DNA of 40,369 bases, from the IMG/VR virus record IMGVR_UViG_3300035698_001287, positions 1 to 40,369 of that record. The stretch is one strand, 5' to 3'. The translations under genes were made by a program, and so were the position numbers. The stretch's first letter is position 1. Each line of letters starts with the position of its first letter. The notes below the pieces were generated by a model. The model did no database searches. It saw only the letters and a list, made by a program, of their open reading frames with translations, and was not told the origin of the DNA. Below, one piece after another: positions 1,221-26,358 of this stretch. The stretch is from a virus.

Positions 1221-2935
1221 TCTTTGACCACTGTAAAGTTTCCTTTTTTCTCGGCTTTGAGTACCCGATCAAAAGAATCCATGAGTTGTTCGCTTTTATG
1301 TGATATAAGGATGGTGTTCGTATTTTTGAATGCTGCCATCAAGCCAAGGAAATCTTGAACCCCTTCAGCGTCCAATGATGTATCGAATAGCTCATCGAAG
1401 ATTAGAAGGTTGCAGTTGACGCTATTCTTTTGCCGCGAGATTTCCCGCCATGTCAGAAGCAAGCTCACATCGATCCGCAACTTTTCGCCTTCCGAAAACG
1501 AATCGTAGCTGAACGTGTCCCGGTAGCGAGACTTGATTGTTTCGTTGAACGTTTCGTCAAGCTCAAACTGGATAAAGAAATTCAGGTCTTCGAGAAACGA
1601 GTTGATCAAGACATTCATTGTCGGTAGATACTGGCGGACAATCTCGCTCTTGATCCCGGTGTCTTTCAGGATCACGATGATGAATTCCAGATAGCGAACC
1701 TGATCCTTGAGCCCTTCCAGTTCTTTTTCGAGTGCTTTGTGTTCGTCTTCTAATGTATCAATCTCCGCTTGGATGCCCTTGCCTGTATCTTTTTGACACG
1801 CCGCTTCAATTTCGTCAATCTCTGCGTTCAGCTTCTTCTTGTACTTCATGTCCGAGTTGATGAGTGTGTTGTTTTCGTACTGCTTTGTTTGTAGTGCAGA
1901 AATCTTGGTCTGCACTTTAGATATCTGACCCCGCTTCGCATCGGCTTTGTCTGTGATCCGTTCCACTTCGGCTAGGGCGTCACGGAGAATGCCGATCTGG
2001 TCATCATAGGATTCGACTTTCTCATCCTTGAAGTCTTCGTCGATGTCCTGTTCGCATGTCGGGCAATGGTCGTTGTCTTCGAAAAACTTCTTTTCCTTTA
2101 TGATTCTCTTTTTCTTGGCAGTCAGACCTGTACCGGTAGACTCGACCTTTTCTAGCTTGTCAAGCTCTGACTCAAACTTATCTTGTTTCTTGTCTTCCAC
2201 ATCGATCTTGCCTTGGATGTCTTCTTGTTGTGCCATCAGCGTATCGCATGTAGAATCGATGCCTTCCATTTCTTTCTTCAGAACCTTGATGCGATCTTTT
2301 GTCTTCTTCGCCTCTTGCTTCAGGTAGTTTGTGTGTACGCCGATCTTTTGCTGGACGATGATCTGTTCATGGTCTTTGTCATCGATGTCGATCATAAGGT
2401 CTGCCATCTGGTCGCCCACAACAACATTCATAGACGAAAAGATATTGATGTCAAGAAGATTTTCTACAATCGTCCGACGATCCGCAGCGGGGAGCTTCAT
2501 AAATGATGTGTATTGACCAGACCCAAGGATGACCACCTGTGTGAACGTCTTGTAGTTACACTTCAGGATAGACTTCTCAAGGATAGTCTGATAATCCTTG
2601 GCGGTAGATGTCTGTTCGATCATCTGCCCGTTCTCAAAGATTTCGAAGACGTTTGGTTTCATGCCGCGACGTACAACGTATTCGGAGTTGTCCGCTTCAA
2701 ACTCGATTTCTACCAGAAGATCACGACTGTTGATGCTGTTCACAAGCTCGGGCTTGTTGCACTTGCGGAAGGTCTTATTGAACAGGGCGAAGCAGATAGC
2801 AGAGATGAGTGTAGACTTCCCGCCTCCGTTTGTTCCGATGAACAATGTGGTTGGGTCTTGGTCAAGCTGAATCTCCACGAACGTATCGCCCACGGAAAGA
2901 TAGTTTTTGTATCGGATGGTGTTGAATGTAATCAT
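1211..2935 (-). CDS. 46: gp46-like recombination endonuclease subunit (Rad50/SbcC type)
   Basis: This is the ATPase half of the T4 gp46/gp47 complex, which resects DNA ends for recombination-dependent replication and helps host DNA degradation. The 574 residues show a Walker A at 34-42 (GTNGGGKST), long coiled coils on both sides of a CPTC zinc hook at 291-294, an ABC signature FSEGEK at 480-485, and Walker B LLIFDE at 510-515 with an H-loop (ISHKSEQ) near 544-550. Length matches T4 gp46 (about 560). The start ATG (2935) overlaps the gp47 stop by 4 bases, consistent with translational coupling. Identification is firm. Confidence 0.97.
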   Translation of the reverse strand: MITFNTIRYKNYLSVGDTFVEIQLDQDPTTLFIGTNGGGKSTLISAICFALFNKTFRKCNKPELVNSINSRDLLVEIEFEADNSEYVVRRGMKPNVFEIFENGQMIEQTSTAKDYQTILEKSILKCNYKTFTQVVILGSGQYTSFMKLPAADRRTIVENLLDINIFSSMNVVVGDQMADLMIDIDDKDHEQIIVQQKIGVHTNYLKQEAKKTKDRIKVLKKEMEGIDSTCDTLMAQQEDIQGKIDVEDKKQDKFESELDKLEKVESTGTGLTAKKKRIIKEKKFFEDNDHCPTCEQDIDEDFKDEKVESYDDQIGILRDALAEVERITDKADAKRGQISKVQTKISALQTKQYENNTLINSDMKYKKKLNAEIDEIEAACQKDTGKGIQAEIDTLEDEHKALEKELEGLKDQVRYLEFIIVILKDTGIKSEIVRQYLPTMNVLINSFLEDLNFFIQFELDETFNETIKSRYRDTFSYDSFSEGEKLRIDVSLLLTWREISRQKNSVNCNLLIFDELFDTSLDAEGVQDFLGLMAAFKNTNTILISHKSEQLMDSFDRVLKAEKKGNFTVVKELE

Positions 2936-4032
2936 GTTGACAGGTCTTCCAGTTGCAACGCCTCTGCGTATATCGTCCGGATCGTTTCTTTCATTGTGCT
3001 TGGCTTGAGTGTGTTTAGCTCAAGCGTGTCTACATAGTCATCTAAAATCGACAATGTATTTTTCGACAAGTCGATCCCGCATTCAGATTCGGGACCACCA
3101 TCTTTCTTCAGTAGCTCGATGTTGTCAATGATGTTCAGGTTCAGGACCGGCAGTGCGTTCAATGCAGTGACCAGTTTATCGAACCGGACCACATCGGTTT
3201 TCTCTCCGACGATCAAGCGGATATATTTGTGCTTATATACGTCAAGGTTTTCTTCGTAGTCGATGTCGGTCGTGTCATCGTACATGATCTTGTAGAACAT
3301 AGAAGTTTTGTACGGGAGAAATTTTGCTTGCAATGATTCCGTGTTCAGGACATGGAAGCCCCGGCTCTGCCCGTAGTCTGCCCACGTTAGTTGGTAAGGC
3401 GTCCCGACGTATAGCACGTTCTTTATAGTGTGTCGGTGATGGAAGTGACCAGAGAAGACCTGCTCAAACTCCGCGAAGGTTCCTACAGGCAATCCAGCCT
3501 CAAACTTTCGGTTCGCCATGACAGACCCACCATTGATTTCAAAGTGCCCCATACAAATCGGAGCTTCTGATTCATCGATTGCTTCGATACATTCGTCTTT
3601 GTTTCCACGGTTGATCCACGGCACGAACAGGACGGACGTAGCACCGACACCTAACGTCTGCGGCGTGTGGGCAATCAGATGAAAGTTATCGTATTCTGCC
3701 AAGATTGTTTCGAGACTGTTGACCCGGTTGGTTGACCGATAGTATGTGTCGTGGTTGCCCGCGACGATGATGATTTCTTTGTCGCCGGTCGCCCACTTCG
3801 CAAGGGTATCGAATACGAACCGTTGTACGGCATCAAGCACCTTGTAGTCCACAGTCTTCCGTGAATCGAAGATGTCCCCCAAGATAATCAGGGTCTTGAT
3901 GTTCGGGTGAGCATTGAGATAGGGAATCAGCCGGGATGTAAAAAACATCACAGCCTGTTCTAGAAATCGTGTGTGGTTGTTGCGAGCCCCGAAGTGAAGA
4001 TCGGAGATTATACAGACATCATAATCATTCAT
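2932..4032 (-). CDS. 47: gp47-like recombination endonuclease subunit (Mre11/SbcD type)
   Basis: This is the nuclease partner of gp46. The metallophosphoesterase motifs appear in order in 366 residues: DLH at 11-13, GDIFD at 52-56, GNHD at 92-95, GHFE at 162-165 and GHFHH at 195-199. These are the metal ligands and catalytic His of Mre11-type enzymes. Length is close to T4 gp47 (about 340). The ATG at 4032 lies two bases after the gp55 stop and the end overlaps gp46, so gp55-gp47-gp46 form one tight transcription unit. Confidence 0.97.
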   Translation of the reverse strand: MNDYDVCIISDLHFGARNNHTRFLEQAVMFFTSRLIPYLNAHPNIKTLIILGDIFDSRKTVDYKVLDAVQRFVFDTLAKWATGDKEIIIVAGNHDTYYRSTNRVNSLETILAEYDNFHLIAHTPQTLGVGATSVLFVPWINRGNKDECIEAIDESEAPICMGHFEINGGSVMANRKFEAGLPVGTFAEFEQVFSGHFHHRHTIKNVLYVGTPYQLTWADYGQSRGFHVLNTESLQAKFLPYKTSMFYKIMYDDTTDIDYEENLDVYKHKYIRLIVGEKTDVVRFDKLVTALNALPVLNLNIIDNIELLKKDGGPESECGIDLSKNTLSILDDYVDTLELNTLKPSTMKETIRTIYAEALQLEDLST

Positions 4033-4034
4033 AG

Positions 4035-4637
4035 TTATTTTTCGTCGCTTAGTTTCATAAAGTCTTCAACACTTTTGTCGGTAGTCACTTTCTTCTTTGA
4101 CTTCCGCTTCTTCTTTTTCTTCTTGGCTGTTTTTTCCTTGGGCTTCCGATCTTCTTCGATGTCGTTGACTGACACCTGAAGATGAGACAGAAACTTTTGG
4201 TAGGGATCGGATTCGTGCAAGTTCTCTTTGCCCTTGATTGCCTTATACAATCCGGACACACCCGCAGCTTCGAAAGCCTTGTACTTGATCATGTGTTGTT
4301 TCTTTTCCTTGGCAATCCGTCGTAGGAAAGCAAAGAAGATGATCTGTGTCACATAGGCAAAAGCGTTGTTGGACTTCTCGGTGTTGAAGTTCTTGACGTA
4401 CTGGATGCAGTTTTCCACACCGTCGTATATCATGTCTTCTTTGAACGTGTAGTTGGAAAAGTTAAGCTTTTGTGCTAATCCCTCTGCGATTCGTAGGATC
4501 ATAGCCCCTAATTCGTTCCGCATCTTGGGTCTTCCCTCTGTTTTCTTGCGGTCACAGGCACGTTTGTACCGTTCAATCTCTTTCACTAAAATTTTATTGT
4601 CAACGTAATGTGTTGACTTTGCTTTCTTTACCATCAT
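4035..4637 (-). CDS. 55: gp55-like late-transcription sigma factor
   Basis: This is a phage sigma factor that takes host RNA polymerase to late promoters. Residues about 40-115 contain a sigma region-2-like helix set (KEDMIYDGVENCIQYVKNFN, then the FAYVTQIIFFAFLRRIAKEK part). This matches cyanophage-type gp55. Length is 200 residues against 185 in T4. Residues 165-183 are a strongly basic tract (six Lys in a row at 172-177), which T4 gp55 lacks as far as I recall. The tail KSVEDFMKL has the Phe-containing look of a sliding-clamp contact (inference). Two in-frame ATGs stand at 4637 and 4634 after a GGAAAGG Shine-Dalgarno. TATAAATA motifs elsewhere in the window are its expected targets. Confidence 0.92.
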   Translation of the reverse strand: MMVKKAKSTHYVDNKILVKEIERYKRACDRKKTEGRPKMRNELGAMILRIAEGLAQKLNFSNYTFKEDMIYDGVENCIQYVKNFNTEKSNNAFAYVTQIIFFAFLRRIAKEKKQHMIKYKAFEAAGVSGLYKAIKGKENLHESDPYQKFLSHLQVSVNDIEEDRKPKEKTAKKKKKKRKSKKKVTTDKSVEDFMKLSDEK

Positions 4638-4789
4638 TTTACCTTTCCATTTTCAACAAAATTCAAAATCGTTGTGGATAACTCGGATTATCTCTTATAC
4701 ATATAGGTGTGTTTATCAACCTTAATTATATATTGATATAATATATAGAGGAAAAGGATGAAACCCGTAGGGTGTTGTGCGTAGCACAA
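4638..4789 (-). promoter_or_regulatory. AT-rich leader upstream of gp55, weak promoter candidates
   Basis: This 152-base gap separates the Sm-like gene from gp55. The minus strand has a TTGATA (4719-4714), then TATAAG (4699-4694) and GATAAT (4692-4687), but the spacings (14 and 21) are not ideal. A separate promoter for gp55 is therefore possible, not shown. No gene of useful length is present: a plus-strand ATG after AGGAAAAGG at 4751-4760 stops after 8 codons. Confidence 0.3.
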
Positions 4790-4790
4790 C
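4760..4790 (-). terminator. Possible terminator: two small hairpins after the Sm-like gene
   Basis: Directly at the TAG stop (4792-4790) the transcript can fold GTTGTGC-TAC-GCACAAC (4790-4774, perfect 7-bp stem). A second short stem, ACCC-TAC-GGGT, follows within 4773-4760 and then only a short T-rich stretch. The stems are clear; the lack of a long T-run makes termination uncertain. Confidence 0.4.
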
Positions 4791-5470
4791 TAATCACTAA
4801 AGAATGAATCGGCCGATCCAGACCATGACTTACTAGCGTTAGGTTTTTGTTTGGGCTTGATCACTGAAGGTTCATTCAGGTCTTCATCCAGCATTGACTT
4901 CTCACCCAACATTTCTAAGAAGTCTTCTTCGTCTTCATCCCATTCGTCTTCCATTTCTTCTTCTAAATCTTCCATGGATTTCCCCTCATTGAAGTTTTGG
5001 TGCATCGCCTGTGCTTCTTTGGTGGTCTTCAGGATGATAGGACCGATCTGTTCGAAGTCTTGTTCTTCGACCTGTCTACACGCAGCCACATAGTATATGC
5101 AGAATTCTTCTGAAGGATACGCGATATGTACAATGTTATCGTCAAAGACTTCGATATATTCGGGTCTTGTTCCAGACACAGCGGGTGTGCAGTAGGCAGT
5201 AGAGGCAATCCGACCACCACCCTGAAACATGTTGAACATAACTCGTAGCGGGTTGTGGACCTTGATGCGACCGTGAACCGATGGTCGCCAGAAAGTATCA
5301 TGAACACAATCCCACAGGACGTTTCCGATGATGTCGTTTCCGTTGGACATGCTGATTATAAGTGTTCGTGGTTCTAAAAACATAGGATGATCCGTGGGGA
5401 TTGATGGAGAAGTAAATCCATATTCCACAGGTTTCGTAATACTATCATTGCTTTTTGGGGACTGACTCAT
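4790..5470 (-). CDS. Sm-like (Lsm-type) phage protein with acidic tail, unknown function
   Basis: The 226-residue protein has an N-terminal stretch (about 30-135) with an Sm-fold-like pattern: a short strand on ISMSNGNDIIGNVLWD, then INVHNP-type strands and a final strand IVHIAYPSEEF. Similar small proteins sit near gp55/uvsW in cyanophage-type genomes, usually annotated as hypothetical. Residues about 165-190 are very acidic (Glu/Asp run). The last residues ADSFFSD resemble aromatic C-terminal tails that contact the sliding clamp in T4 proteins; that is a guess. The start has a good Shine-Dalgarno (AAGGGAG, 9 bases before ATG) and a CTAAATA motif just upstream. The role is unknown. Confidence 0.75.
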   Translation of the reverse strand: MSQSPKSNDSITKPVEYGFTSPSIPTDHPMFLEPRTLIISMSNGNDIIGNVLWDCVHDTFWRPSVHGRIKVHNPLRVMFNMFQGGGRIASTAYCTPAVSGTRPEYIEVFDDNIVHIAYPSEEFCIYYVAACRQVEEQDFEQIGPIILKTTKEAQAMHQNFNEGKSMEDLEEEMEDEWDEDEEDFLEMLGEKSMLDEDLNEPSVIKPKQKPNASKSWSGSADSFFSD

Positions 5471-5501
5471 AACATATGCTCCCTTCGTATAATGGTATCT
5501 A

Positions 5502-7004
5502 CTAAGTATTTAGCTTTACGATGCGATAATCAAACTGTTGTTTGTCATAAATCTCACATCTTTTCAAGCCATGCCGTAGTGCGAAGTTGTTTCGCTTATA
5601 CTTTCCCTTGTAGTTATCCACGATATCAAACAGCCGAACATGTTTCTTTCCCTCTGCTAGTCGTAGCCCACGACCTATGCTTTGTAACACACGGATTGCT
5701 GACTTGGACGGAGAGGCAAAGATAATATTGTCCAGCTTCTTGATGTTGATGCCTGTAGAGAATACACCATAGGACGCGACCGTGATACTATTGTCGTAGG
5801 TTTCAATGGCGTTTCTGATTTCTTCTCTTGCTTCTGCATCGGTTGTGTTCCCGAATACGTTATGCACAGGCATATCCGAACCTACATGGTCGAACACCTT
5901 ATTATACAATACTTTACCGTGTTTGTCAACATAATTCACAAGAATTAGTGTATTTCCTTTGAGACTTGCCGCCAAATCTACGATAAAATCGTTACGCTTG
6001 GGGTCTGCGATAAGATAGGCAATCTCTTGTTGGTACTCAAACTTGTTGAATTGCTTACAAATCTCCGCATCTTTTTCTTCACGGAAGATTGTATCGATCT
6101 TCAGCGGAGCGATGTCCCCACGATCCATAAGCTCTTTCGTGCTGATAAGCTCATGGACTTCACCGAACAATCCCTGTAGGACCAGCCGGTGACATTTAGA
6201 TTCATCAGCAGCGAGCGTGCCGGTCAGCCCGAACCGCAGAGAAACATCGGTTGCTTTCTCCATGATGCCGGTGATCGAGGTTGCTTTTGCCTGATGTGCT
6301 TCATCTACAATGATCATATCATACTTGTTGAACCACTCGCTGCCCATGTTATAGACCGATTGCCATGTCGTGACCGTCATGGAACAATCTCCCCGGTCTT
6401 TATCTTTGCCAGAGAAAACAATGTGGATGTCCGAATCATCTTCGGAGCATTCATAGTCCAGAAAGTCAGACTTCATCTGTAGCACAAGGTTGGTAGTCGG
6501 AACAATCAGAAGCGTCTTTGCGTTCCATCGTTCTTTGATGTACCGGTACATGAGATAAATGATCAGGGATTTTCCTGAAGCGGTAGGAGAAAGAAACAGC
6601 TTGCGGTGGTCCGAAGATGTGAATGCGGATTCCAACGCTTCTATCTGGTAGTCACGCGGAACGATCACTTCACCCTTAGAATATACTTCTGTCTTGTCGA
6701 GCCATTCCGTTAGCTCCCCGTCATTTGCTGTCGGGAAGTTATGCTCATCATCGTGAATCACATACTCGTAGTCCATGTCGCTACAAAACTGAATGAGCTT
6801 GGGCAACAGACCGACATACAGTGTTTCAGCATGCTTGCGGAACAGTCGAATGTATCCGTCCCATACCTTGTTCTTGAAAGAAGGGACGTACTGATAGCCC
6901 GGCGGTTGAAAGGCAAAAAAATCATTCAACTCCGCTTGGATCGAAGGTTCACAATAAATCTTATAGTGGACTTCGTTGTGCCGGACTATCTTGATGGGTT
7001 CCAT
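5502..7004 (-). CDS. uvsW: UvsW-like DNA helicase
   Basis: Superfamily 2 helicase that in T4 remodels branched DNA and R-loops and helps switch to recombination-dependent replication. The 500 residues (T4 UvsW 503) start with the small N-domain, then Walker A SPTASGKS at 139-146, DEAH at 234-237, the TGT motif near 261-263, and motif VI QSIGRGLR at 441-448. The start ATG (7004) is one base after the stop of the upstream gene, so it is co-transcribed with uvsY and the two sugar-transfer-type genes. Identification is firm. Confidence 0.96.
   Translation of the reverse strand: MEPIKIVRHNEVHYKIYCEPSIQAELNDFFAFQPPGYQYVPSFKNKVWDGYIRLFRKHAETLYVGLLPKLIQFCSDMDYEYVIHDDEHNFPTANDGELTEWLDKTEVYSKGEVIVPRDYQIEALESAFTSSDHRKLFLSPTASGKSLIIYLMYRYIKERWNAKTLLIVPTTNLVLQMKSDFLDYECSEDDSDIHIVFSGKDKDRGDCSMTVTTWQSVYNMGSEWFNKYDMIIVDEAHQAKATSITGIMEKATDVSLRFGLTGTLAADESKCHRLVLQGLFGEVHELISTKELMDRGDIAPLKIDTIFREEKDAEICKQFNKFEYQQEIAYLIADPKRNDFIVDLAASLKGNTLILVNYVDKHGKVLYNKVFDHVGSDMPVHNVFGNTTDAEAREEIRNAIETYDNSITVASYGVFSTGINIKKLDNIIFASPSKSAIRVLQSIGRGLRLAEGKKHVRLFDIVDNYKGKYKRNNFALRHGLKRCEIYDKQQFDYRIVKLNT
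5507..5513 (-). promoter_or_regulatory. Possible late promoter variant CTAAATA
   Basis: CTAAATA on the minus strand, 37 bases before the ATG of the Sm-like gene and overlapping the last codons of uvsW. It differs from the T4 late consensus TATAAATA in the first bases. The motif also occurs inside genes, so the evidence is mainly position. Confidence 0.3.
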
Positions 7005-7005
7005 T

Positions 7006-7776
7006 TTATGCTTTTAGTCCCATTACGGTATCCCAAAACGCTTGGATGGGAAGGAACACAAGGTTCTTAGGATACGGGCTCCATTCTTGGGGCATCATGC
7101 ATCCGTCATCTTGTACACGGTAGAAAACGATGTGTGGGTTTTCCAGAATGACCGACAGCATCATAGGCGACCATCTCATTGTGGTGATCGGCTGCGACCC
7201 GGTGGCGTGGTAGTTGTATGTGTCTGCGTATAGGTTGTTGAATTTCTGAACCCGTCTGCCCTTTTCGTCTTCTTCCACCTTACCAAACACATCGAAGCCG
7301 AGCATGAAGATTTCCGAGTGTGCCTTTTTCTTTAGCTTTTGTGCAGCCAGATCGAGCAAAACACCACCGGACATGTAGCCACGGTCTACGCCGAGCGTGT
7401 GTTGTACAGATTTGATAGACGCGGGACGCTTTACTTGTCGGTGGTTGCGGAACACCACTTCTTTCCCGGTGTATCCAGACTTGATGATTTCTTTCTGCAT
7501 CGGAGCATCGACAGACACCAGAGCGTCCACCCAAGGATGCGACCGATACACAGCGTTGCATGCGAATACTTTTCCGCACCGGTGAAGGTCATATAGATCG
7601 ATGGGTTTGCGGGACTCGCCGTTGCCAAGCACAAAGATACGGTCATCCCATCCGTTTATCTTGTCGGCAATCGCGGCTTGGTACTTCTTCCGTCCGGACA
7701 GATCGTAGTTTCGATTGTTGTCTGCGAGTCGTGCCTTAGAGTTGTTCTTCCGCTTCTTTTTTCGCTTGCTGCTCAT
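7006..7776 (-). CDS. DUF115 / sialyltransferase-like phage protein
   Basis: The 256-residue protein begins with a Lys/Arg-rich tail (about 1-25). A FVLGNGESRKPIDL segment (about 48-61) and VFACNAVYRSHPWVDALVSVD (about 69-89, shown as two joined patterns) follow. The LGNGxS...CN.xY arrangement is typical of DUF115/GT42-like nucleotide-sugar-binding proteins and of phage orphan proteins of that type. It overlaps the upstream GT8-like gene by 4 bases (ATGA) and precedes uvsW by one base. A sugar-transfer role on surface glycans, virion or DNA is an inference from the motif and neighbour; substrate unknown. Confidence 0.6.
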   Translation of the reverse strand: MSSKRKKKRKNNSKARLADNNRNYDLSGRKKYQAAIADKINGWDDRIFVLGNGESRKPIDLYDLHRCGKVFACNAVYRSHPWVDALVSVDAPMQKEIIKSGYTGKEVVFRNHRQVKRPASIKSVQHTLGVDRGYMSGGVLLDLAAQKLKKKAHSEIFMLGFDVFGKVEEDEKGRRVQKFNNLYADTYNYHATGSQPITTMRWSPMMLSVILENPHIVFYRVQDDGCMMPQEWSPYPKNLVFLPIQAFWDTVMGLKA

Positions 7777-8486
7777 AGTAATAAACCTAACTTTCTCATG
7801 TCATCGTGTATGTGGTCTTTGCCTATTCGTCCTGTCCAATGGTATATATACACATCTTTAGGTGCTTCTCCGTTGATCCGGAGCCATTGATACTTCTGAT
7901 TGATTATTTTGATCTTGGCGGGGGCTATCTTGTCCCGTTGCTTTGCCAGAACCCAATTTATCACTTCTTGGTCGCCCCGCAGGTCTAAATCAGGGTTTTT
8001 ACAGGCATCTTGCCATGTTTTTACTAATTGGTTTCTCACGGAAGACACGATTACGCCTACTGTAATAGGGTTTTTTGTGTACTGAGAGTTGAATTGTGTA
8101 GGAATATCGAAGGTAGTCACAAACTTGTCATCGTCGTTGTCCGCAAGGGCGTACATAGAGCCGATGTCGCGACGTACTTCACAGTCCAAATCCATGTAAA
8201 TATAGCGGGAATAGCAGCATTCTCGTAGCAGCGTAGGCTTCTTGAACCATGCGTCTGTCTTACCGGGAATCGGGTCGGTGATAGAGTGCAACGCTCCCCG
8301 AGCCAAACACCAATCTCTCATCTTTTCTGACATCCCATAATCACCAAAGCAAAAGTGGTGATCAGCCGGGTCATTACAACTGGTGAAGTGATGCCACCAC
8401 CACGGCAACATCCATTCATGGTTGCTGTCACAGCCTAGCAAAATACATTGGTTTCTTTTTCCGTCTTCGCTTCGATGATAGTCCAT
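7773..8486 (-). CDS. Glycosyltransferase, GT8/DXD type
   Basis: The 237 residues contain RYIYMDLDCEVRRDIG (about 93-108), in which DLD is the metal and nucleotide-sugar binding DXD of GT-A enzymes. Upstream is KTDAWFKKPTLLRE, the part that often precedes DXD in GT8 and mannosyltransferase-like proteins. A late HWTGRIGKDHI (about 216-226) resembles the C-terminal His metal ligand region. The ATG (8486) directly follows the uvsY stop. Finding sugar-transfer genes inserted between uvsY and uvsW is unlike T4. The glycosyltransferase call is fairly safe; acceptor unknown. Confidence 0.72.
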   Translation of the reverse strand: MDYHRSEDGKRNQCILLGCDSNHEWMLPWWWHHFTSCNDPADHHFCFGDYGMSEKMRDWCLARGALHSITDPIPGKTDAWFKKPTLLRECCYSRYIYMDLDCEVRRDIGSMYALADNDDDKFVTTFDIPTQFNSQYTKNPITVGVIVSSVRNQLVKTWQDACKNPDLDLRGDQEVINWVLAKQRDKIAPAKIKIINQKYQWLRINGEAPKDVYIYHWTGRIGKDHIHDDMRKLGLLL

Positions 8487-9495: not shown

Positions 9496-10272
9496 TTATT
9501 GTCCTATAGGGTGTGCGTGATTTTCGGGAATATGTGGAGTTTCGATCTGGTGGTTTAGTACTAAATCTTTGATTGTTGTCCAATCTTCATAGAATGTATC
9601 AAACTGAGCCGCGAGCCCGGCGACATCTTTTTCAATTTCCACACCACGCTCATTTGTGAATCGTGTCGTAGAGATGCCACGCTGTATATCTTCCAGTCGG
9701 GTAACATCCTCACTAATCTCATTTATCTTTGTGATGTATCCCGCAGTTTCTTTCATATGGTCTGATTGCCATGTAAGAACATCATAGTTTCGTGTATGTA
9801 GTTTATCAATCTCGATGTTCATATCTTTAGTTTGCTCGCCCCGCAATACATTCCCCACACCGTCGATTTGCTGGACCCAATGTGCATCCCGCTTGGCAAT
9901 GGCAACATCCCGGTTCTGAACCATCGCCCACCCGAACCCACCAGCCAACATCGCCCAAAAGACAGAAGCGATTACGACCGCAGTAATCGGCTTCATCAAT
10001 CCTTGAGATGCGGTTCTCTCTCCCATTGCTGTCATGGCTGTTCGCATTTCTGTTGCGAATAATTGAAAGTCTCGGCTCAAGTTGTTTTGATTCTTGCCGA
10101 GATTTTCCTGACCCTCTTTCAGAGTAGAGATGTCGCCCTCTACTCTGGCAAGGTCGGCTCGGGTTGCGAACATGTTGAATGGATTAGTGGTATCCCCGGT
10201 GGGCGTTGTTGACATACTTATAGCGTCCTGTATTTGCTTGAATGTGGGTTGACTATCATTCTCTTTCGCCAT
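9496..10272 (-). CDS. Single-pass membrane protein with coiled coils, unknown
   Basis: The 258-residue protein has a hydrophilic N-part with a predicted coiled coil (about 35-85). One membrane segment follows at about 94-119 (ITAVVIASVFWAMLAGGFGW core). The rest is a mostly helical C-part of about 135 residues. There is no signal peptide at the N-terminus. It lies between the carbohydrate-active genes and a tail gene, and has its own CTAAATA motif and an AGGA Shine-Dalgarno before ATG 10272. Possible roles are lysis, superinfection exclusion or virion membrane contact; nothing in the sequence decides between them. Confidence 0.65.
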   Translation of the reverse strand: MAKENDSQPTFKQIQDAISMSTTPTGDTTNPFNMFATRADLARVEGDISTLKEGQENLGKNQNNLSRDFQLFATEMRTAMTAMGERTASQGLMKPITAVVIASVFWAMLAGGFGWAMVQNRDVAIAKRDAHWVQQIDGVGNVLRGEQTKDMNIEIDKLHTRNYDVLTWQSDHMKETAGYITKINEISEDVTRLEDIQRGISTTRFTNERGVEIEKDVAGLAAQFDTFYEDWTTIKDLVLNHQIETPHIPENHAHPIGQ

Positions 10273-10349
10273 AATGAATGTCCTTTATTGTATTTAGCAT
10301 GATTGATAGGTCAACAAAGCACAACAATAGCTTATGTAAGATAGGCTAT
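10273..10349 (-). promoter_or_regulatory. Intergenic leader with CTAAATA motif and an inverted repeat
   Basis: This 77-base gap holds a CTAAATA (10297-10291) about 19 bases before the next ATG, a candidate late promoter. Near 10327-10351 an inverted repeat AATAGC...GCTATT could fold in the transcript after the hyaluronidase-like gene, without a T-run. Both are weak. Confidence 0.35.
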
Positions 10350-11141
10350 TTAGGTAGTGTTACTTAGTTGATCGATCTTTGAGACATAACTGTCCCATTC
10401 GGTGACTCTCGCACCATTGCCCCATTCAATAGCATCGGTCACACCCTCATCTTCCATCCATGAAAGATAGGCATCCCAATACTCTTGCTTTATCAACTTG
10501 CCCTTGTCCCTGCCTACGTCATGGTAATACCGCCAGATATACGGCACGACAGGCTTCTTAAATCTCTTTGCCTCTTGAATAATACCACGGACCCACTTCT
10601 CCTGCCTCCCATTTTCAAACCAGTCTTCATAGAAACAATACAACGACGGAGAAATACAATCTACTTTGTGTGCAATAAGGCTGTGAATCCATGCGAACAT
10701 ATCTGCCTGATATGTATTCAGCCGTTCACCCCCTACAATATGGGCGTAGATGTCGCGGTGTGGGCATCCATAGAAACCGTAGGTACAATCAGGACGGTGG
10801 AGATTACAAAAATCAATGATGTCACACATGACGGACTTTGTGTATTCCCATTTACCCACGCCCCAATACGTCGATCCCATCGCAAGCGGCTCTACATCCA
10901 GAGAAACCATTGCGGCATATGGTCTATCGAGTAGCCACGGCAGAAACTTCTTGAACGAAAAGAAAAACTTTCCGTACTTGTCTTCTCTGCCGGGCAGACA
11001 CTCAAGACCGGACGGGTCAGCCTCTTGGGTCAACTCCCGCCATTGATTTCCGTAGGCTACATGGATTTCATTATAGCCATCCATCGTCTTGGCTGGTTTG
11101 TTTAAGAAGTTTACCCGTTCGTCATACAGTCGAATCGTCAT
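10350..11141 (-). CDS. Hyaluronidase-fold-like (GH56-type barrel) protein, putative glycosidase
   Basis: The 263 residues have a TIM-barrel look. An AAMVSLDVEPLAMGS strand (about 76-90) carries a DxE pair (D82, E84) placed as in GH56 hyaluronidases (there FDWE). Next come CTYGFYGCPHRDIY (GH56 has a GxYxFPxCYN segment), CISPSLYCFYEDW (like the ALYPSVY strand), and KPVVPYIWRYYHD and DAIEWGNG as later strands. The order of elements fits, but identity is low, so the family call is tentative. It overlaps the dockerin-bearing gene upstream by 20 bases and so is probably made together with it. Expected role is degradation of a surface polysaccharide. No signal peptide is seen. Confidence 0.5.
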   Translation of the reverse strand: MTIRLYDERVNFLNKPAKTMDGYNEIHVAYGNQWRELTQEADPSGLECLPGREDKYGKFFFSFKKFLPWLLDRPYAAMVSLDVEPLAMGSTYWGVGKWEYTKSVMCDIIDFCNLHRPDCTYGFYGCPHRDIYAHIVGGERLNTYQADMFAWIHSLIAHKVDCISPSLYCFYEDWFENGRQEKWVRGIIQEAKRFKKPVVPYIWRYYHDVGRDKGKLIKQEYWDAYLSWMEDEGVTDAIEWGNGARVTEWDSYVSKIDQLSNTT

Positions 11142-13929
11142 AACTTTTATTCCAGTTTGTTAGTAGTTCGTTCATGTCTTCGATGCCTACGAAGCCATCG
11201 CCCGATAGATCACCCTCTGCCCTTGAACCTACATGCTGATTCCAGTTTGCATTTATGGCGTTCAGGTCTTCGATGCCGACGAAACCATCTTCGTTTACGT
11301 CACCGAGATTGAAGATGTGTACGACCGAATCATCTACTACAGAATCCTGTAGAACAGGGTCGATGATTTCGGCACTCAGGTATTCATCAAGTGTATTGAA
11401 TCCCGCACGATAGACAGCCCCGAGAGCGATTACCGCATGGTCGCCACCTTCGATTACTTCTTTGATTCTTTTCTGTACTTCTCTGTGACATTCTCGGGTC
11501 CATCCACCCAAGTTATTTCCTTCATAACCACGGACGCCATTTTCTACGTCGTCTGCACCCGGCATCAGGAATACAAGAGCATCACCACCGAATTTATCCC
11601 ATGTACCGGCATTCTTTCTGCCCTTGTAGACGCCCCATACAGCACCACCGGAAAGGTCTTGCATGTCGCTATCAACCGGTGGGGATTCTACGCCGTATTG
11701 TCTTCCGTCCAACAACGTCAGTTCGTGATACAATCTGTGCATCGCCCCATACTTCGATTGTGGAAGCACCCGAGCAGAAGCATCGACCATAACATTACAT
11801 TTAGTCTTGTCGAATGGTGTATAGCAATCATCCCATAGATCACGGAACGAGTTGGGACCGCCTTTTTCCCATGCGTTTTCAAGCAACGGATCAGCAGCCC
11901 ACAATTCCCGTTCCCGAGTAACACCTAGGTTTGTGTCGCCACCGGCATGACCAACATACATCCACACATCTACGTCCGGATGTTCTTTTCTCCACTTGTT
12001 GACACCGGAAACAAATGTCTTCCATAGAACAACATTATTGTCTCGTTGTGCCCACACATACCCGGTGAACCACATCGGTACACGACCGGTCACACCCGAA
12101 ACATGCGGAGTAGGGAACGGCTGTCGGATGAAAATCGTCTTCACACCGTACTTCTCTACCCGTTCGTTGTATGTGTCGGAAAGGAAATCATACCATCCAC
12201 CACCATCATTTTTTAGTTGTGGCTTTGCGAGAGGATAGGTAGAGTTGTCGGTAAGGTCGATGATAAGGTCTGTGTTGTATTCCACTGGTGGCATAATATC
12301 TGATACCTTTATGTCGTGTGTGTTCATAATAGAAGGGGTGATCCCTTCACTGATTAGTTGTTTCGCGTAGGCAATAACACCTTCTCTGGCTTCGGGGCTA
12401 TAAGGTCTTTCGAATCCAATTTTCGAATGCCGGATAAAGATAATGTTTTCGTCCGGATGCATTCTCCATGTCGGCGGGTCTAATGACAGATAGCCGGGGC
12501 TGTGCATGTAATCATTTCGTGCTTCGGCTGTGATAGGAACCCATGTGATATGATCGTGCCCCTCTGTAGGAATCGTAGGTTCTACATAGCATTTAACCCC
12601 TTGTTCTGTAAGGTCAGTCATAAGGTCAAAGGTAAGTGTGTCTTTCGCCACATACGAACCAACATCAAATGCGATAGAAGCACCCTCACCCATGAACGGG
12701 CTAAGAGCATCCATCGCTCTTGCGTATGTTGCTTCGGTATTAGTATCGTTGTCGAAGTTGGCATCGGCTCGCATCGTTCCGAGATAGTATATAACTTCCA
12801 TACCTTTGTCGATCCAATACTTTGTAACTTCATGGAGTCTATGAACCGCCAAGATGATATCGAACCGACCATCATCATTTGATTCTCTACAATGGATGTA
12901 CTGGTCAAACTGCATGTCTTCGGGATGAATTGTGCCAAAATAATTGTGTACAATCACACGCCGGTATCCCAAGTCCCATTGTTCTTGGAACAGGTCATCC
13001 AGTGCGTCTGCCCCACGATCTAAAATTGTAGAACGGAGTCTGCGAATGTGGTTGTCGGCTGACGCTCCACCAATTGTGAGCCACGCGATAGGTTGTATCA
13101 TTTTTTCTTCTTTCTTTGTGTATGTTTCTGGTGGGTATTTAGCCCAATCGGTCGTGTTCCCGCCGCCGATTGCCGGGGTGAAGCCATCGGCTACTACCCG
13201 TTTGATATATGCAAGAACGTCGCGTCCCTCTCGGTCCAACTGATCGGGACGGACAATGATAATGTTTTCGTCTGGATGCCACTTCCATATGTTTTCTTTT
13301 CCGTCTGCGAAGTGTTTAGAGATTGTATCATATCCGCGAGTCATCGGAACCCATTCGGAAGGTTCGTCTGTTGTTGTCCGAGACAATGGCTCTTGATAAC
13401 ACTTGATTCCGTCATTTGTCAGGTCGGTCATAATCTTATACGTCGCATCTTCTGGTGTGATTTTATGACACGCATCAAACCCAATACTAATACCGGGCAT
13501 AAGGAACGGAGCGAGACTATCCATACATCGTTTGTATTGTTCGTCGATGGGGCGACCCTCGAAATCTGGATCAAGTCTGCCGGTGTTGATATCGGCTAAG
13601 ACCGTCCCGACATAGTAGATGACTTCCATACCTTTGTCGAGCCAGTATCGCGTGACTTCCCGTAGCCTTGTTACGTCCAGAACCTTATCAAATCTTCCAT
13701 CGGTATTTGACCGCACACAATCAAGGTATTGATCGAAGTGCATATATTCACCCCAAATAATACCGAAGTAGTTATGAACCACGACCCGACGATATCCAAC
13801 ATCCCACGCCTGTTGAATGTAATCATTCAGTGCGTCAGCCCCACGTTCTAAAAACTCTTTTCCAATCACACGAACATTATTGTCATAGCGATTGGTACAT
13901 ATTGCAATCCACGCGATAGGGTTATTCAT
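11122..13929 (-). CDS. Large multi-domain putative carbohydrate-active protein with C-terminal dockerin module
   Basis: The 935-residue protein starts at ATG 13929 after a GAGGAAAAC Shine-Dalgarno; an upstream in-frame ATG (13959) has none. Two copies of a barrel-like domain of about 280 residues follow each other. Both begin PIAW, share GYRRVxVHNYFG, KGMEVIYYxGT and WxxHPDENIIxxR, and include a GxSIxFD strand. A third, different region (about 570-865) is likewise rich in alternating strands and helices and has a MWFTGYVW segment and an LVFLMPGADD segment. The last 60 residues are a dockerin pair (described separately). It follows a terminator after gp23 and has its own CTAAATA motif. Enzyme activity and substrate are not recognisable; glycoside hydrolase or glycan-binding is inferred from fold pattern and dockerin. 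Confidence 0.72.
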   Translation of the reverse strand: MNNPIAWIAICTNRYDNNVRVIGKEFLERGADALNDYIQQAWDVGYRRVVVHNYFGIIWGEYMHFDQYLDCVRSNTDGRFDKVLDVTRLREVTRYWLDKGMEVIYYVGTVLADINTGRLDPDFEGRPIDEQYKRCMDSLAPFLMPGISIGFDACHKITPEDATYKIMTDLTNDGIKCYQEPLSRTTTDEPSEWVPMTRGYDTISKHFADGKENIWKWHPDENIIIVRPDQLDREGRDVLAYIKRVVADGFTPAIGGGNTTDWAKYPPETYTKKEEKMIQPIAWLTIGGASADNHIRRLRSTILDRGADALDDLFQEQWDLGYRRVIVHNYFGTIHPEDMQFDQYIHCRESNDDGRFDIILAVHRLHEVTKYWIDKGMEVIYYLGTMRADANFDNDTNTEATYARAMDALSPFMGEGASIAFDVGSYVAKDTLTFDLMTDLTEQGVKCYVEPTIPTEGHDHITWVPITAEARNDYMHSPGYLSLDPPTWRMHPDENIIFIRHSKIGFERPYSPEAREGVIAYAKQLISEGITPSIMNTHDIKVSDIMPPVEYNTDLIIDLTDNSTYPLAKPQLKNDGGGWYDFLSDTYNERVEKYGVKTIFIRQPFPTPHVSGVTGRVPMWFTGYVWAQRDNNVVLWKTFVSGVNKWRKEHPDVDVWMYVGHAGGDTNLGVTRERELWAADPLLENAWEKGGPNSFRDLWDDCYTPFDKTKCNVMVDASARVLPQSKYGAMHRLYHELTLLDGRQYGVESPPVDSDMQDLSGGAVWGVYKGRKNAGTWDKFGGDALVFLMPGADDVENGVRGYEGNNLGGWTRECHREVQKRIKEVIEGGDHAVIALGAVYRAGFNTLDEYLSAEIIDPVLQDSVVDDSVVHIFNLGDVNEDGFVGIEDLNAINANWNQHVGSRAEGDLSGDGFVGIEDMNELLTNWNKSYDDSTV
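11125..11304 (-). other. Dockerin type I-like module (two calcium-binding repeats)
   Basis: Two repeats, GDVNEDGFVGIEDLN and GDLSGDGFVGIEDMN, lie about 30 residues apart. Each is followed by a helix ending in NW(N). Each carries the Ca2+ loop D-x-N/S-x-D-G-(5)-D of dockerins. The GDGFVGIEDLN wording is the form often seen at the C-termini of planctomycete secreted proteins. Dockerins bind cohesins; no cohesin-like domain was recognised in this window. Confidence 0.85.
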
Positions 13930-13966
13930 TTGGTTTTCCTCGTTTGGCAAGATAGGCATTCTATAC

Positions 13967-13973
13967 TATTTAG
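13967..13973 (-). promoter_or_regulatory. Possible late promoter variant CTAAATA before the dockerin gene
   Basis: CTAAATA on the minus strand between the gp23 terminator and the ATG at 13929, about 38 bases upstream of the start. Since the terminator should stop read-through from gp23, a promoter is needed here, and this is the best candidate. Confidence 0.4.
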
Positions 13974-13979
13974 GGACAT

Positions 13980-14010
13980 AAAAAAACGAGAGTCTGTTAG
14001 GACTCTCGTT
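13980..14010 (-). terminator. Intrinsic terminator after gp23
   Basis: A perfect 10-bp inverted repeat, AACGAGAGTC (13985-13994) and GACTCTCGTT (14001-14010), encloses a 6-base loop. On the minus strand it is followed by a run of seven T (13986-13980). It ends the gp22-gp23 transcript 30 bases after the gp23 stop. Confidence 0.92.
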
Positions 14011-14040
14011 TCATGGTTATTTAGTTTTCGAGACTGATTT

Positions 14041-15387
14041 TTACATCAGGTTCAGTACCCGAACGATTCGGTAATACTTGTTGTTGTTCGGCGTATCAGC
14101 ATTTGTGTCTGCTGTTACGTTCGCGAACGGGTTGTTGACCACACCATACCGAGTCTTGAAGGCAATCTTCGGTTGGAAGTTGGTTTCATCAACCGCACGA
14201 ACCATCTGCAACGGAACGTATGGGCAGTAGAACAGACCAGCATCGATAGCATTCGGTCCCTTGTAGCCAACCGTGAAGTACTCAGTACCAGCAGAAGTGG
14301 AAAAGTAAGGATCGATGTAAACCTTCAAGCGACCGTTGATTGTACCAGCAAACGTGTTGCCAGTGTCATCGACGTTGAGGTTAGTACTCAGAGCAGGAGT
14401 GTAATCCAACACGCCAGCCTGAACGAGAGCCGAAGCTACGTCAGACGAACACATGATGAAGTTACCCTTGCCCCGTCTGGTATCCTTAGCGATTTGGTTA
14501 CAATCGCGTTCGATCTGGAAAAGCATACCCTTGAATTTTTCGACCATCCAACGACCGTTTGAGTCGGTGTCAAGGTTGAATTGACCAGCGTTAGCTGTGT
14601 TTGTTTGGGCTCCGAGTCTAGCACCGTAGTTTACACGACGGACCATTTCTCGGTTGATTTCTGCAACAATTTCTGTTGACAGAATGTTCGCCAGTTCGGT
14701 TTCGGCATTCAAGCCATGGAGAGCCTGAAGGTCTTGAGCCAATTCAAGGCTGTATTCAGCCATCAACTGACGGGTCTTAGCTTGCACAGCAACACGTTCG
14801 ATGCTGAAGCCCATCTGACCTGTGATATCGCCCTGACCGGTTTCGGTACTCATACCGTCATAGAAACCGTATCGTGAACCGGCGGTTGCGCCAGCGGAAT
14901 CTGAGAACGGATCGTAAGCAGCAGAGTCAGCAGACGAATTGCCGATTCGCGTAGAATCACCAGAATGCTGAGTTTCAGCTTCGTTGAACAGAGCTTCAGT
15001 CGCAGTTGACTTGGCACTGTCGTATCGGGCTCGCATAGCGAAGATCAGCCCTGTAGGACCGGTCATCGGCTGAACACCACAAATATCATACGCGATTAGG
15101 TTGGGCATTGCCCGTCTAACCAGCGAGATAAGGATGGGGTTATATGCACGAACGTTCCCGCCAGATGACGGATCGTTGCCGATATAGTTAGTGGGAGTAT
15201 TTTCGGTAAGCATACCGAAGCCACTTGAGTTTTGATTGGCTTCCGTCTTGATGAAAGCCTCTTGGTTTTCAAGAAGCTGTGCGGTCACGGCTCGCTTGTG
15301 ATTGTTTTCAATCTTGCCAAGTGCCCCCACGTTTAGAACGGGAGCCCATTTTTCTTGTAGCTGTTGTGAGTTTTGTCCAGTAAACAT
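14041..15387 (-). CDS. 23: gp23-like major capsid protein
   Basis: Capsid subunit of the T4 type. The 448 residues carry the conserved block YNPILISLVRRAMPNLIAYD and the following GVQPMTGPTGLIFAMRARY part. Further on are ELSLELAQDL-type helix residues and the late FKTRYGVVNNPFA segment. The N-terminal part before ANQNSSGFG is probably a delta peptide removed by gp21. I start at ATG 15387, which has a GGAG Shine-Dalgarno 8 bases upstream. The in-frame TTG at 15402 is part of that site. A TATAAATA promoter and the terminator frame the gene. Confidence 0.97.
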   Translation of the reverse strand: MFTGQNSQQLQEKWAPVLNVGALGKIENNHKRAVTAQLLENQEAFIKTEANQNSSGFGMLTENTPTNYIGNDPSSGGNVRAYNPILISLVRRAMPNLIAYDICGVQPMTGPTGLIFAMRARYDSAKSTATEALFNEAETQHSGDSTRIGNSSADSAAYDPFSDSAGATAGSRYGFYDGMSTETGQGDITGQMGFSIERVAVQAKTRQLMAEYSLELAQDLQALHGLNAETELANILSTEIVAEINREMVRRVNYGARLGAQTNTANAGQFNLDTDSNGRWMVEKFKGMLFQIERDCNQIAKDTRRGKGNFIMCSSDVASALVQAGVLDYTPALSTNLNVDDTGNTFAGTINGRLKVYIDPYFSTSAGTEYFTVGYKGPNAIDAGLFYCPYVPLQMVRAVDETNFQPKIAFKTRYGVVNNPFANVTADTNADTPNNNKYYRIVRVLNLM

Positions 15388-15436
15388 TATTGTATTCTCC
15401 AAAGAATGTCTTTGTATTATGTTGTATAACCAAAGT

Positions 15437-23440: not shown

Positions 23441-23448
23441 TATTTATG
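23441..23448 (-). promoter_or_regulatory. Likely late promoter variant CATAAATA of gp18
   Basis: CATAAATA (23448-23441), one base from the T4 consensus, at the end of the glycosyltransferase gene and 66 bases before the gp18 ATG. Confidence 0.5.
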
Positions 23449-24214
23449 AAATCTGTTGTTTTACGCCCCACGCCCCTAAAAGCTGCCCTGTGGGTTTGTA
23501 GTTCGAATATTTCGGGTTCGCGTTTAGTTTTTCTTTGTCCATTCCTAGCCGCTTGAATTCAGCGAAATCATCTTTCAGTGTGGTCTGTCTAACAACACCT
23601 TTAGCCTTCCCGGCAAAATGAACCATTGGGGAGTGTGTGGCATAGGCTAAGGTATATCCCATGTCATACATTTTCTCAAACATATAGTCATCCCCGCAGA
23701 AAGTTTTGATCCCTTTAGGAATAACCGTCATGGCTTCTCTGCGGAATGTCGGAGCCCACCCCTCGCGGTATTTGTATGATTCGACAATATCATAGGTCGG
23801 CTTGACCCCGATTGTTCGCCAGTTGGGATGATTGGTTGGATGGCATACACAGCCAACCGTATCATCTTTATCAAATATTTGCTCCGCATGGGCAACAAAG
23901 TTTCGCGGCAACCGCACATCGTTATTCAAGAGGCACACAAACTCCGTATCGACCTTCCGAAAGAACCACGACCATATCTTGTTGATCGCGTAGTTTTGTT
24001 CATTGTAAATGATATTTTTGATCCGGGGATATTTAGCCTGAAGCCCCGAAAACTTCCGTCTTGCATGCTTATCATCTAATGGTCTTGGTCCCTGATCTAT
24101 AATGGTGATGTCACAATCGGCTGAATGCCCCTTGTGTAAATCAGCCACACAGTCTCGCGTGTAGTCAAAGTTATGACAATTGATTATTAGGGCTGATGTT
24201 CGGTTTATGACCAT
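23444..24214 (-). CDS. GT2-type glycosyltransferase between gp17 and gp18
   Basis: The 256 residues have the GT-A family 2 layout. There is a first strand SALIINCHNFDYTRDCV, then DITIIDQG, later TEFVCLLNNDVRLPRNF with the NND metal-binding site, and GDDYMFEKMYDMGYTLAYA as the acceptor-side acid region. I use ATG 24214, which overlaps the gp17 stop by 10 bases; the longer frame from 24244 would overlap gp17 more. T4 has no gene here. The target (virion protein, host glycan or DNA base) is not visible. Confidence 0.75.
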   Translation of the reverse strand: MVINRTSALIINCHNFDYTRDCVADLHKGHSADCDITIIDQGPRPLDDKHARRKFSGLQAKYPRIKNIIYNEQNYAINKIWSWFFRKVDTEFVCLLNNDVRLPRNFVAHAEQIFDKDDTVGCVCHPTNHPNWRTIGVKPTYDIVESYKYREGWAPTFRREAMTVIPKGIKTFCGDDYMFEKMYDMGYTLAYATHSPMVHFAGKAKGVVRQTTLKDDFAEFKRLGMDKEKLNANPKYSNYKPTGQLLGAWGVKQQIS

Positions 24215-26358
24215 CCTGTATACGCATTCCCAAAGTGATCCCATGTCGCCACGATTTGTTCATTTGGATTTCTTTTTGGCAACGGAACATCAGAAAATCC
24301 ATCAGCAAGATCGTCGGGCATGTAGCCAAAAGGTGTGACTTCTGCGCCGTGTTTCTTACTTCTATCCTTATATATGTCCCGTCTAAAGTTGCCTTTTTGC
24401 TGGCTCTTGAAGTATGTCTGGTCGATCATCCATGCGAATAGCACACAACACATCACCAGATCGTCATAGCATCCGATTTCAGCCTCAAAGCTGCCCTTCT
24501 TGTTTGAGATGAACGTAGAAAACTGCCCAATCAGATCGATGTCTTCGACAATCAGCTTGTCCTGTTCGATGAGAGACTTCAGGTTAGAACACCCGACAGC
24601 CTTGACCGGCTTGGACGTAGCGACACCAAGAATGGATCGTCTGCCACCACCGTTCCCCAAGACCTGACCCTTCCGACCCATCGATTGTGTAGAAAGGAGA
24701 TGACCGTATTGATAGTCTGCGTTCATAATATCAAGAACCTGCCCGCCTGCGTCCTTATTTTCTATCAAAACCATACAGTTATTGTATTGTTTTGCGACAG
24801 GATATATGATTGTAGGAAAATACAACGGCGGCACTTCGTTGTCCATAAATGTGCCTACCACTCGGTACGGCATCTCTGTTATATCAAATATCACGAACGC
24901 CGAGCAATCGCCTACACCGTGAGCGTTCCGACCGCGAGCGACATCAGCGACCAGTGCGTATACCTTAGCCGGGTCGGGCTTCTCATACAGACACAGACCA
25001 TCCTTGTCATAGATCGGTTTTCGGTGAGCCATCGTGACAAGTTTCTTGGGATTGATGAGCGTATTAGCCGAGCCCAAAAACTCACAGTTATGTGAAATCA
25101 TCCCGTTAGAGATATAATGTTCACAGTTTAGAGGATCGTACAGGTCATCCGTGTATGTGTGGAATACAGGCACGATAGACGTAATGCCCTGTGCCTCTTT
25201 CTTCCCGGCGATGTTTGTATAGATGTATAGTTCATGGTCGATGTCTTCGACACGCATCCATCCCGCAGACGTATACAACTGGTGATCCGGAGAGCATGTA
25301 AGCTCGCAACCGTTTGCCAGCGTGACCTTCCGTAGCTCCCTCACCGGTCGCTTCTTCAGGATGCCAGAGAACGGACGGAAAATCCCTGTGCCTGTTTCAA
25401 TCTCCCAATCTTCTTTGTTGGGTCTGATTGTAGAGTCACCGTCCCACTCATTCATATATTCATCGTGGGCTTTTTTGATTGTGGTGATATATGTCTTTTC
25501 GGTTCCCGGTCTTTTCAACGTAATGATGGTGGACCCGAGAACACATTCATGTTCCTGTGAAAACTGTTCCGATGATGTATTACGGACCTGTTCACGTTTC
25601 CACGCTTCGTCACGGTCGGGATGGTCCCACCATTTGATAGAGAACGGCTTGAAGTCGTTTGTCTTTTCTTCTGCCCCTCTCCACATCTTGTAGAACCAGT
25701 CACCGATACCATTCGGCGTAGACGTAATGATTACTTTGGTAGTTTTACCAGATGAGATGGTAGGATAGACTGATGTGAAAAACTCTTGTTGGATGTTTCT
25801 CGGCACGAATGCAAATTCGTCCAAGAGAATGTTCGTGAATGAATAACCACGGGCTGCACTGGACGCGACCGCAAACGCGATGATATGTGACCGGTTTTCA
25901 AACTCGATGTCTCCCTTGTTCCATGTAACCACGCCTTGCTGTAGCCACTTGGGAAGGTACTGATACATCAGAGCAACACGCGAAAGGATTTCCCTTGCGG
26001 TGTCGGCTTTGTTGGCAAAGATACCAATGGTCTTGTCTTTATGGAATATCGCTTCCCAAATCAGATACCCGGCGGCACAGGATGTCTTGCCGACCTGTCG
26101 CGGGCATTTGGTGATAGAGAACCGGTTGAAAGAAAACAGGTTCACCATGTCTTCTTGATAGTTGTGTAGGTTGAAGTAGATCAGCCCGTCATCGACGTTC
26201 ACGATCTTACAATACTTGCGGATAAAGTATATGGGGTCAGCCTGACAGACCATAAACTCTTTGATCTGTTCGGGAGTAAAGTTTTGCTTCACACCCTTTG
26301 GCTTCAGGAGCCTATTATTTTGATACCCAATAGGGTCACGGCTGTTTGTTGTTGTCAT
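24205..26358 (-). CDS. 17: gp17-like large terminase with in-frame mini-intein
   Basis: Packaging motor ATPase and nuclease. The N-part has Walker A CPRQVGKT (residues 85-92 from ATG 26358) and Walker B ILLDE (about 177-181), with a TSTPNG coupling motif. The C-part has VADVARGRNAHGVGDCSAF (first acidic ligand), ENKDAGG and YDDLVMCCVLF of the RNase H-like nuclease. Between them, at the conserved QEHECEFLGS block, lies a 153-residue intein (feature 25087-25545). After splicing the protein would be 564 residues (T4 610). ATG 26358 overlaps the gp16 end by 23 bases; the frame from 26415 is longer but lacks family support. Confidence 0.95.
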   Translation of the reverse strand: MTTTNSRDPIGYQNNRLLKPKGVKQNFTPEQIKEFMVCQADPIYFIRKYCKIVNVDDGLIYFNLHNYQEDMVNLFSFNRFSITKCPRQVGKTSCAAGYLIWEAIFHKDKTIGIFANKADTAREILSRVALMYQYLPKWLQQGVVTWNKGDIEFENRSHIIAFAVASSAARGYSFTNILLDEFAFVPRNIQQEFFTSVYPTISSGKTTKVIITSTPNGIGDWFYKMWRGAEEKTNDFKPFSIKWWDHPDRDEAWKREQVRNTSSEQFSQEHECVLGSTIITLKRPGTEKTYITTIKKAHDEYMNEWDGDSTIRPNKEDWEIETGTGIFRPFSGILKKRPVRELRKVTLANGCELTCSPDHQLYTSAGWMRVEDIDHELYIYTNIAGKKEAQGITSIVPVFHTYTDDLYDPLNCEHYISNGMISHNCEFLGSANTLINPKKLVTMAHRKPIYDKDGLCLYEKPDPAKVYALVADVARGRNAHGVGDCSAFVIFDITEMPYRVVGTFMDNEVPPLYFPTIIYPVAKQYNNCMVLIENKDAGGQVLDIMNADYQYGHLLSTQSMGRKGQVLGNGGGRRSILGVATSKPVKAVGCSNLKSLIEQDKLIVEDIDLIGQFSTFISNKKGSFEAEIGCYDDLVMCCVLFAWMIDQTYFKSQQKGNFRRDIYKDRSKKHGAEVTPFGYMPDDLADGFSDVPLPKRNPNEQIVATWDHFGNAYTGWS
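25087..25545 (-). other. Mini-intein in the terminase
   Basis: The insert starts with Cys in CVLGSTII (block A) and has LTCSPDHQLYTSAGW (block B with T..H). It ends YDPLNCEHYISNGMISHN followed by Cys (blocks F and G with the terminal Asn and Cys+1). At 153 residues it has only the splicing domain, with no homing endonuclease. Flanks QEHE and CEFLGS join to the usual gp17 sequence. All residues needed for canonical splicing (C1, block B Thr/His, penultimate His, terminal Asn, Cys+1) are present, so it is probably active. Confidence 0.92.

Follow-up and report, generated by a model that had tools for sequence, protein, structure and literature searches.

The window analyzed here is the 40,369-nucleotide (nt) stretch that makes up IMG/VR record IMGVR_UViG_3300035698_001287, and the viral genome from which it comes is probably much longer. 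Its central feature for the present study is a minus-strand gene (11122-13929) for a protein of 935 amino acids (aa) with three tandem barrel domains and a C-terminal dockerin. The source virus is a T4-type phage, with genes of the T4 core on the same contig (gp23, uvsY, uvsW, an SbcC-like gene of the gp46 type, and a tail tube gene of the gp19 type). The open reading frame spans 11122-13959, and translation from its first ATG would yield 945 aa. However, the ATG at 13929 is the better start, with GAGG upstream of it and a late-promoter-like box at a distance of 38 nt. The main features of the locus are as follows.

11122-13929, minus strand: main gene, 935 aa, encoding barrel 1, barrel 2, barrel 3, and dockerin in that order; alternative start at 13959
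13162-13929, minus strand: barrel domain 1, with invariant Asp at 13474-13476 and Glu at 13390-13392
12316-13101, minus strand: barrel domain 2, with Asp at 12664-12666 and Glu at 12580-12582; AlphaFold2 model with pLDDT of 78
11323-12276, minus strand: barrel domain 3, a diverged copy, with Asp at 11782-11784 and Glu at 11686-11688
11170-11307, minus strand: C-terminal type I dockerin, with calcium loops at 11260-11304 and 11170-11214
13136-13142, minus strand: internal CTAAATA box, 35 nt before the in-frame ATG at 13099-13101 that starts barrel 2
13967-13973, minus strand: CTAAATA late-promoter-like box of the main gene
13983-14012, minus strand: intrinsic terminator between the gp23 gene and the main-gene unit
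14041-15402, minus strand: T4-type major capsid protein gp23, 59% identical to that of Pelagibacter phage HTVC008M; upstream neighbor of the main gene
10350-11141, minus strand: GH56 (hyaluronidase)-like barrel, 263 aa, with a D82-x-E84 motif; downstream neighbor, whose start is overlapped by the stop of the main gene

Barrels, dockerin, and late-type signals of the gene

An alignment of barrels 1 and 2 over 266 columns shows 46% identity (E value, 1e-77), in agreement with the original prediction, made from the sequence alone, of two homologous domains of about 280 residues. The third region noted in that prediction exists but is not a domain of a separate type. When it was compared with an 18-sequence profile from which it had been left out, hhalign aligned it over 237 columns (probability, 92%; E value, 5.9e-7), and HMMER matched it with the 18-sequence profile as a separate domain (E value, 8e-6). 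The protein therefore has three barrels rather than two. Barrel 3 found no relative in a single-sequence search of 298 genomes and was linked to the family by profile comparison only afterwards.

The predicted barrel fold was recovered when barrel 2 was modeled with AlphaFold2 from 18 sequences. The model is a TIM barrel of the (beta/alpha)8 type found in glycoside hydrolases, with a mean pLDDT of 78 and a poorly modeled last third. The best PDB matches of this model in Foldseek were mainly glycosidases (E value, 3e-4; TM-score, about 0.4), and VIA-align matched it to an alpha-amylase (Z score, 10.3), with GH20, GH129, and GH191 enzymes also among the rows. All 37 aligned domains (18 viral copies, 16 bacterial domains, and the 3 domains of the window) share, without exception, an Asp where strand 4 ends, a Glu where strand 5 ends, one Tyr, and two Gly. 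All three copies in the window thus carry an acidic pair at strand ends, as glycoside hydrolase TIM barrels do. In GH13-type retaining enzymes the nucleophile is an Asp at strand 4 and the acid is a Glu at strand 5. Because the acidic pair is placed in the same way, the barrels are likely to be active glycosidases, predicted from sequence and model, of an undescribed family. Their likeness to GH13 is limited to the fold and the placement of the Asp/Glu pair; there was no sequence match to GH13 in Pfam, NCBIfam, or the PDB.

Type I dockerins consist of two duplicated calcium loops of about 20 residues (D1, N/D/S3, D5, D12) and the helices that follow them. The duplicated loops are present at the C terminus of the protein, and both are complete, as predicted (GDVNEDGFVGIEDLN and GDLSGDGFVGIEDMN, spaced by 30 residues); a search with the loop pattern gave two matches, compared to 0.00 expected in shuffled sequences. 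The positions within the loops that contact cohesin are known for clostridial dockerins, and the corresponding positions of both loops here hold an I-E pair. A scan for dockerin loops found them in at least 120 viral stretches, so such loops are not rare in viruses. Viral proteins, tail-like ones among them, often have dockerin-like loops (loci L125 to L244), and these loci include several lineages of planctomycete-type C-terminal dockerins (L157, L162, L164, L189, and L204).

No signal peptide or other export signal was detected in the protein, which would therefore remain in the cytoplasm until assembly or lysis. By analogy with the late promoters of T4-type phages, which are the model for reading CTAAATA boxes as late, the gene appears to be a late-type transcription unit with its own box and terminator, as its assignment to the late region had implied. 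The major capsid gene has the box TATAAATA 35 nt upstream of the gp23 ATG. CTAAATA was counted 10 times on the stretch compared to 3.9 expected, and because 3 of 100 shuffled sequences reached the observed count, the boxes are suggestive rather than proven promoters. The layout of box and ATG at barrel 2 is the same as that at the start of the gene. This is most simply explained by tandem duplication of an entire gene, promoter included, followed by in-frame fusion, and a shorter second product from the internal ATG is possible.

The family of the downstream GH56-like gene was found in 14 of 298 Phycisphaerae genomes and was not found in 34 other virus records. A match to bee venom hyaluronidase (1fcq; E value, 2.3e-7) was obtained with the family profile, and Pfam GH56 (PF01630) matches 4 of 15 family members; the window protein alone had no match. 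The D-x-E motif, which in GH56 holds the catalytic Glu, is retained in the window protein. With this family beside the barrel protein, two adjacent late genes look glycan-active. The next gene (9496-10272), preceded by a CTAAATA at 10291-10297, encodes a protein with one central hydrophobic segment that is possibly a membrane or lysis protein. Elsewhere on the contig, a glycosyltransferase family 2 gene of the late region (23444-24244) may modify phage or host glycans, as may two genes between uvsY and uvsW (7006-7776 and 7773-8486), one of which has a weak sialyltransferase-like PHROG match.

Relatives in Phycisphaerae and in other viruses

The whole main protein belongs to no Pfam, NCBIfam, or PHROG family, and a PDB sequence search with it returned nothing credible; a weak match to phrog_34441 (E value, 0.004) was disregarded. 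Named phages (50,697 records) offered no counterpart, pattern scans run directly on IMG/VR with the main protein and with its downstream neighbor found no relative, and the 80 contigs with the nearest gp23 had no homologue of the barrel, the neighbor, or the dockerin. A pattern scan of the genomes of 84,980 species gave two matches, both in metagenome-assembled genomes of Phycisphaerae, where each barrel gene sits in a polysaccharide-synthesis locus whose genes include those for a polysaccharide flippase and a GDP-mannose dehydratase. In profile searches, 7 of 397 Phycisphaerae genomes had members of the family, with up to five copies in one genome, and among 392 genomes drawn from across the phylum only two had the family, both previously found. 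Because the family profile searches were confined to this phylum, restriction of the family to Phycisphaerae is not claimed. One bacterial member (L013) carries dockerin-like repeats that score just below the Pfam cut-off (21.3 bits). The barrel family appears to be undescribed in the libraries searched. Its members in Phycisphaerae substantiate the planctomycete link drawn in the original prediction, and judged from these shared genes, the host of the phage is probably a member of the Phycisphaerae.

A scan of IMG/VR with two viral members of the family recovered 18 further barrel loci, each on a contig other than the window. Two of them (L268 and L269) have the barrel gene within a T4-type baseplate-wedge operon, in the order gp6-like gene (phrog_219; E value, 1.8e-150), another wedge subunit, barrel, and the phrog_438 wedge subunit. 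L281 encodes a 1936-aa protein (1915-7725) that contains the barrel; its gene lies between gp19 and uvsY, the same neighborhood as in the window, and the protein also has a C-terminal heparinase II/III-like domain. A 3246-aa phage protein (L265:2130-11870; also L283) has the barrel near its N terminus, followed by a long remainder, with no PHROG match; it is possibly a giant fiber. The arrangement is thus not as singular as had been supposed: it was absent from the named phage records, but the barrel family and the dockerin loops both recur in other viral sequences. In the family tree all 18 viral barrels form one clade (support, 1.00). Barrels 1 and 2 of the window fall outside it, with bacterial sequences (support, 0.82 to 0.91), and were probably captured separately. 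The baseplate synteny of the viral relatives is for this reason evidence by analogy only and may not transfer to the window.

The original prediction was that the dockerin may dock on a cohesin-like surface protein of the host or the virion. The phage fragment itself yielded none, but 6 of the 18 barrel contigs encode a cohesin. Two of these, in L273 (10937-12151) and L274 (4686-5885), pass the Pfam cohesin cut-off (31 to 32 bits compared to 24.1) and have no signal peptide, and the L274 cohesin gene lies directly upstream of the barrel gene, ending 10 nt before it. In addition, a recurrent cohesin-dockerin protein of about 250 aa was found in 16 viral contigs (L207:2886-3653 and L247 to L262) and in Phycisphaerae (L263). 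Most copies have a signal-peptide-like start and a C-terminal dockerin, and the cohesin is missed by the Pfam model. The model of the N-terminal domain of L207 has a low pLDDT (57). Of its 31 Foldseek matches under an E value of 1e-3, 30 were cohesin or cohesin-like chains or complexes, as were 49 of 50 VIA rows (Z scores up to 12.1). Because of the low pLDDT, this domain was relied on only together with the Pfam matches of L273 and L274. A search of eight Phycisphaerae genomes with PF00963 found no cohesin. The conclusion drawn from this result, that Phycisphaerae offer no partner, was withdrawn when another profile (A9) showed that 51 of 397 Phycisphaerae genomes encode members of a divergent cohesin-like family. 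The eight genomes had 22 to 105 dockerin matches each. The matching cohesins of related viruses suggest that cellulosome-type docking chemistry is also employed by phages.

Possible roles of the protein

The gene product is probably a late, virion-associated, dockerin-tagged, glycan-degrading protein. In the proposed mechanism, its three glycosidase-like barrels would be packed onto the virion, or joined to it through a cohesin-bearing protein, and would clear surface polysaccharide of the host during attachment, alongside the GH56-like product of the overlapping gene. This full account, in which the protein is part of or plugged into the virion and acts on Phycisphaerae polysaccharide, seems to us about as probable as all its rivals together, with the enzyme activity, the host, the virion location, and the cohesin partner each inferred. 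Several observations weigh against it. The dockerin falls slightly short of the Pfam Dockerin_1 (PF00404) curated cut-off (19.1 to 19.5 bits compared to 22.9; E value, 6.6e-5 for the record), and the 40-kb fragment has no cohesin. Confidence is low in the last third of the barrel model, and the TM-scores are only about 0.4. Barrels 1 and 2 lie outside the viral clade, PHROGs give no structural annotation for the protein or its relatives, and the host assignment depends on shared genes alone. More tentative is the broader proposal that cohesins, dockerins, and multibarrel glycan-degrading proteins, all encoded by T4-type phages of Phycisphaerae, plug into one another on virions or infected cells, which would make them a phage equivalent of the cellulosome or planctosome.

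The main rival explanation is that the protein is a soluble enzyme freed at lysis, the dockerin of which docks on cohesins of neighboring cells or of debris, so that glycan that would trap the progeny is stripped away. We regard this as a serious but less probable alternative. The absence of a signal peptide and the late-type expression fit it, as do the cohesin-like proteins and numerous dockerins of Phycisphaerae and the grouping of the window barrels with bacterial rather than viral barrels; the relatives inside a baseplate operon point instead to virions.

It is unlikely that the barrels are noncatalytic and bind sugars on the capsid or tail, for example, as a head decoration that keeps the phage near its hosts. 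The position of the gene directly after the major capsid gene would suit such a role, and duplicated domains are common in binding proteins, but all three copies and each of the relatives retain the Asp/Glu pair, which would not be expected if activity had been lost. A little less likely still is a protein with enzyme-like barrels whose dockerin works without cohesin, as a calcium-stabilized tail or an oligomerization module, which may also be the case for other viral proteins with a single dockerin-like loop. The scatter of dockerin-like loops over many viral tail-like proteins is consistent with this explanation, as is the failure of the Pfam model to find a cohesin in eight Phycisphaerae genomes with the barrel family. 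However, that model misses the cohesin-like family of Phycisphaerae, and other phages encode cohesins beside the barrel gene. Finally, host DNA joined to the phage by misassembly, or a decaying captured gene, is very improbable. Barrels 1 and 2 do have their closest relatives in bacterial chromosomes, but the GC content is even over the gene and the contig, which makes misassembly unlikely, no stop interrupts the 935 codons, the gene is flanked by late-type signals, and it overlaps the next gene.

Comparison with known systems

Cohesin-dockerin systems and virion depolymerases are both known, and no published phage with both came to light; the open literature searched (subscription papers and preprints not included) yielded neither a phage cohesin-dockerin pair nor a planctomycete T4-type phage. 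The protein resembles those of cellulosomes, and of the "planctosome" proposed for freshwater Planctomycetes (PMC6461901), in being a presumed hydrolase that bears a type I dockerin of two duplicated calcium loops, and cohesin-dockerin adaptor proteins are present in related phages and in Phycisphaerae. It differs in that the bearer of the dockerin is a late phage product lacking an export signal and in that the phage fragment has neither scaffoldin nor cohesin. Dockerin-cohesin pairs are widely used protein-assembly tools, and a phage-evolved set could be useful.

The Phycisphaerae barrel family (L001 to L018) has the same domain and invariant Asp/Glu pair, and its member L013 has dockerin-like repeats. 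However, the bacterial proteins mostly have one barrel each, and several have planctomycete export or surface features. The barrel family named here is, as far as the libraries searched show, undescribed, and its conserved Asp/Glu pair makes it directly amenable to biochemical testing. The neighboring gene product compares with GH56 hyaluronidases through its family profile, whereas the phage protein itself is below the Pfam model.

As in phage virion-associated depolymerases (tailspikes and fibers), domains of a polysaccharide-degrading type are found here in a late protein with relatives among baseplate genes. Those depolymerases are usually beta-helical, whereas the present protein has TIM barrels and a dockerin-type attachment module. 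Phage depolymerases are usually fused to tail fibers or are themselves spikes. If the proposed mechanism is correct, plug-and-socket attachment of multidomain glycan-degrading proteins would arm virions in a different way, and it would provide a molecular handle on planctomycete phages, a group almost absent from the literature searched.

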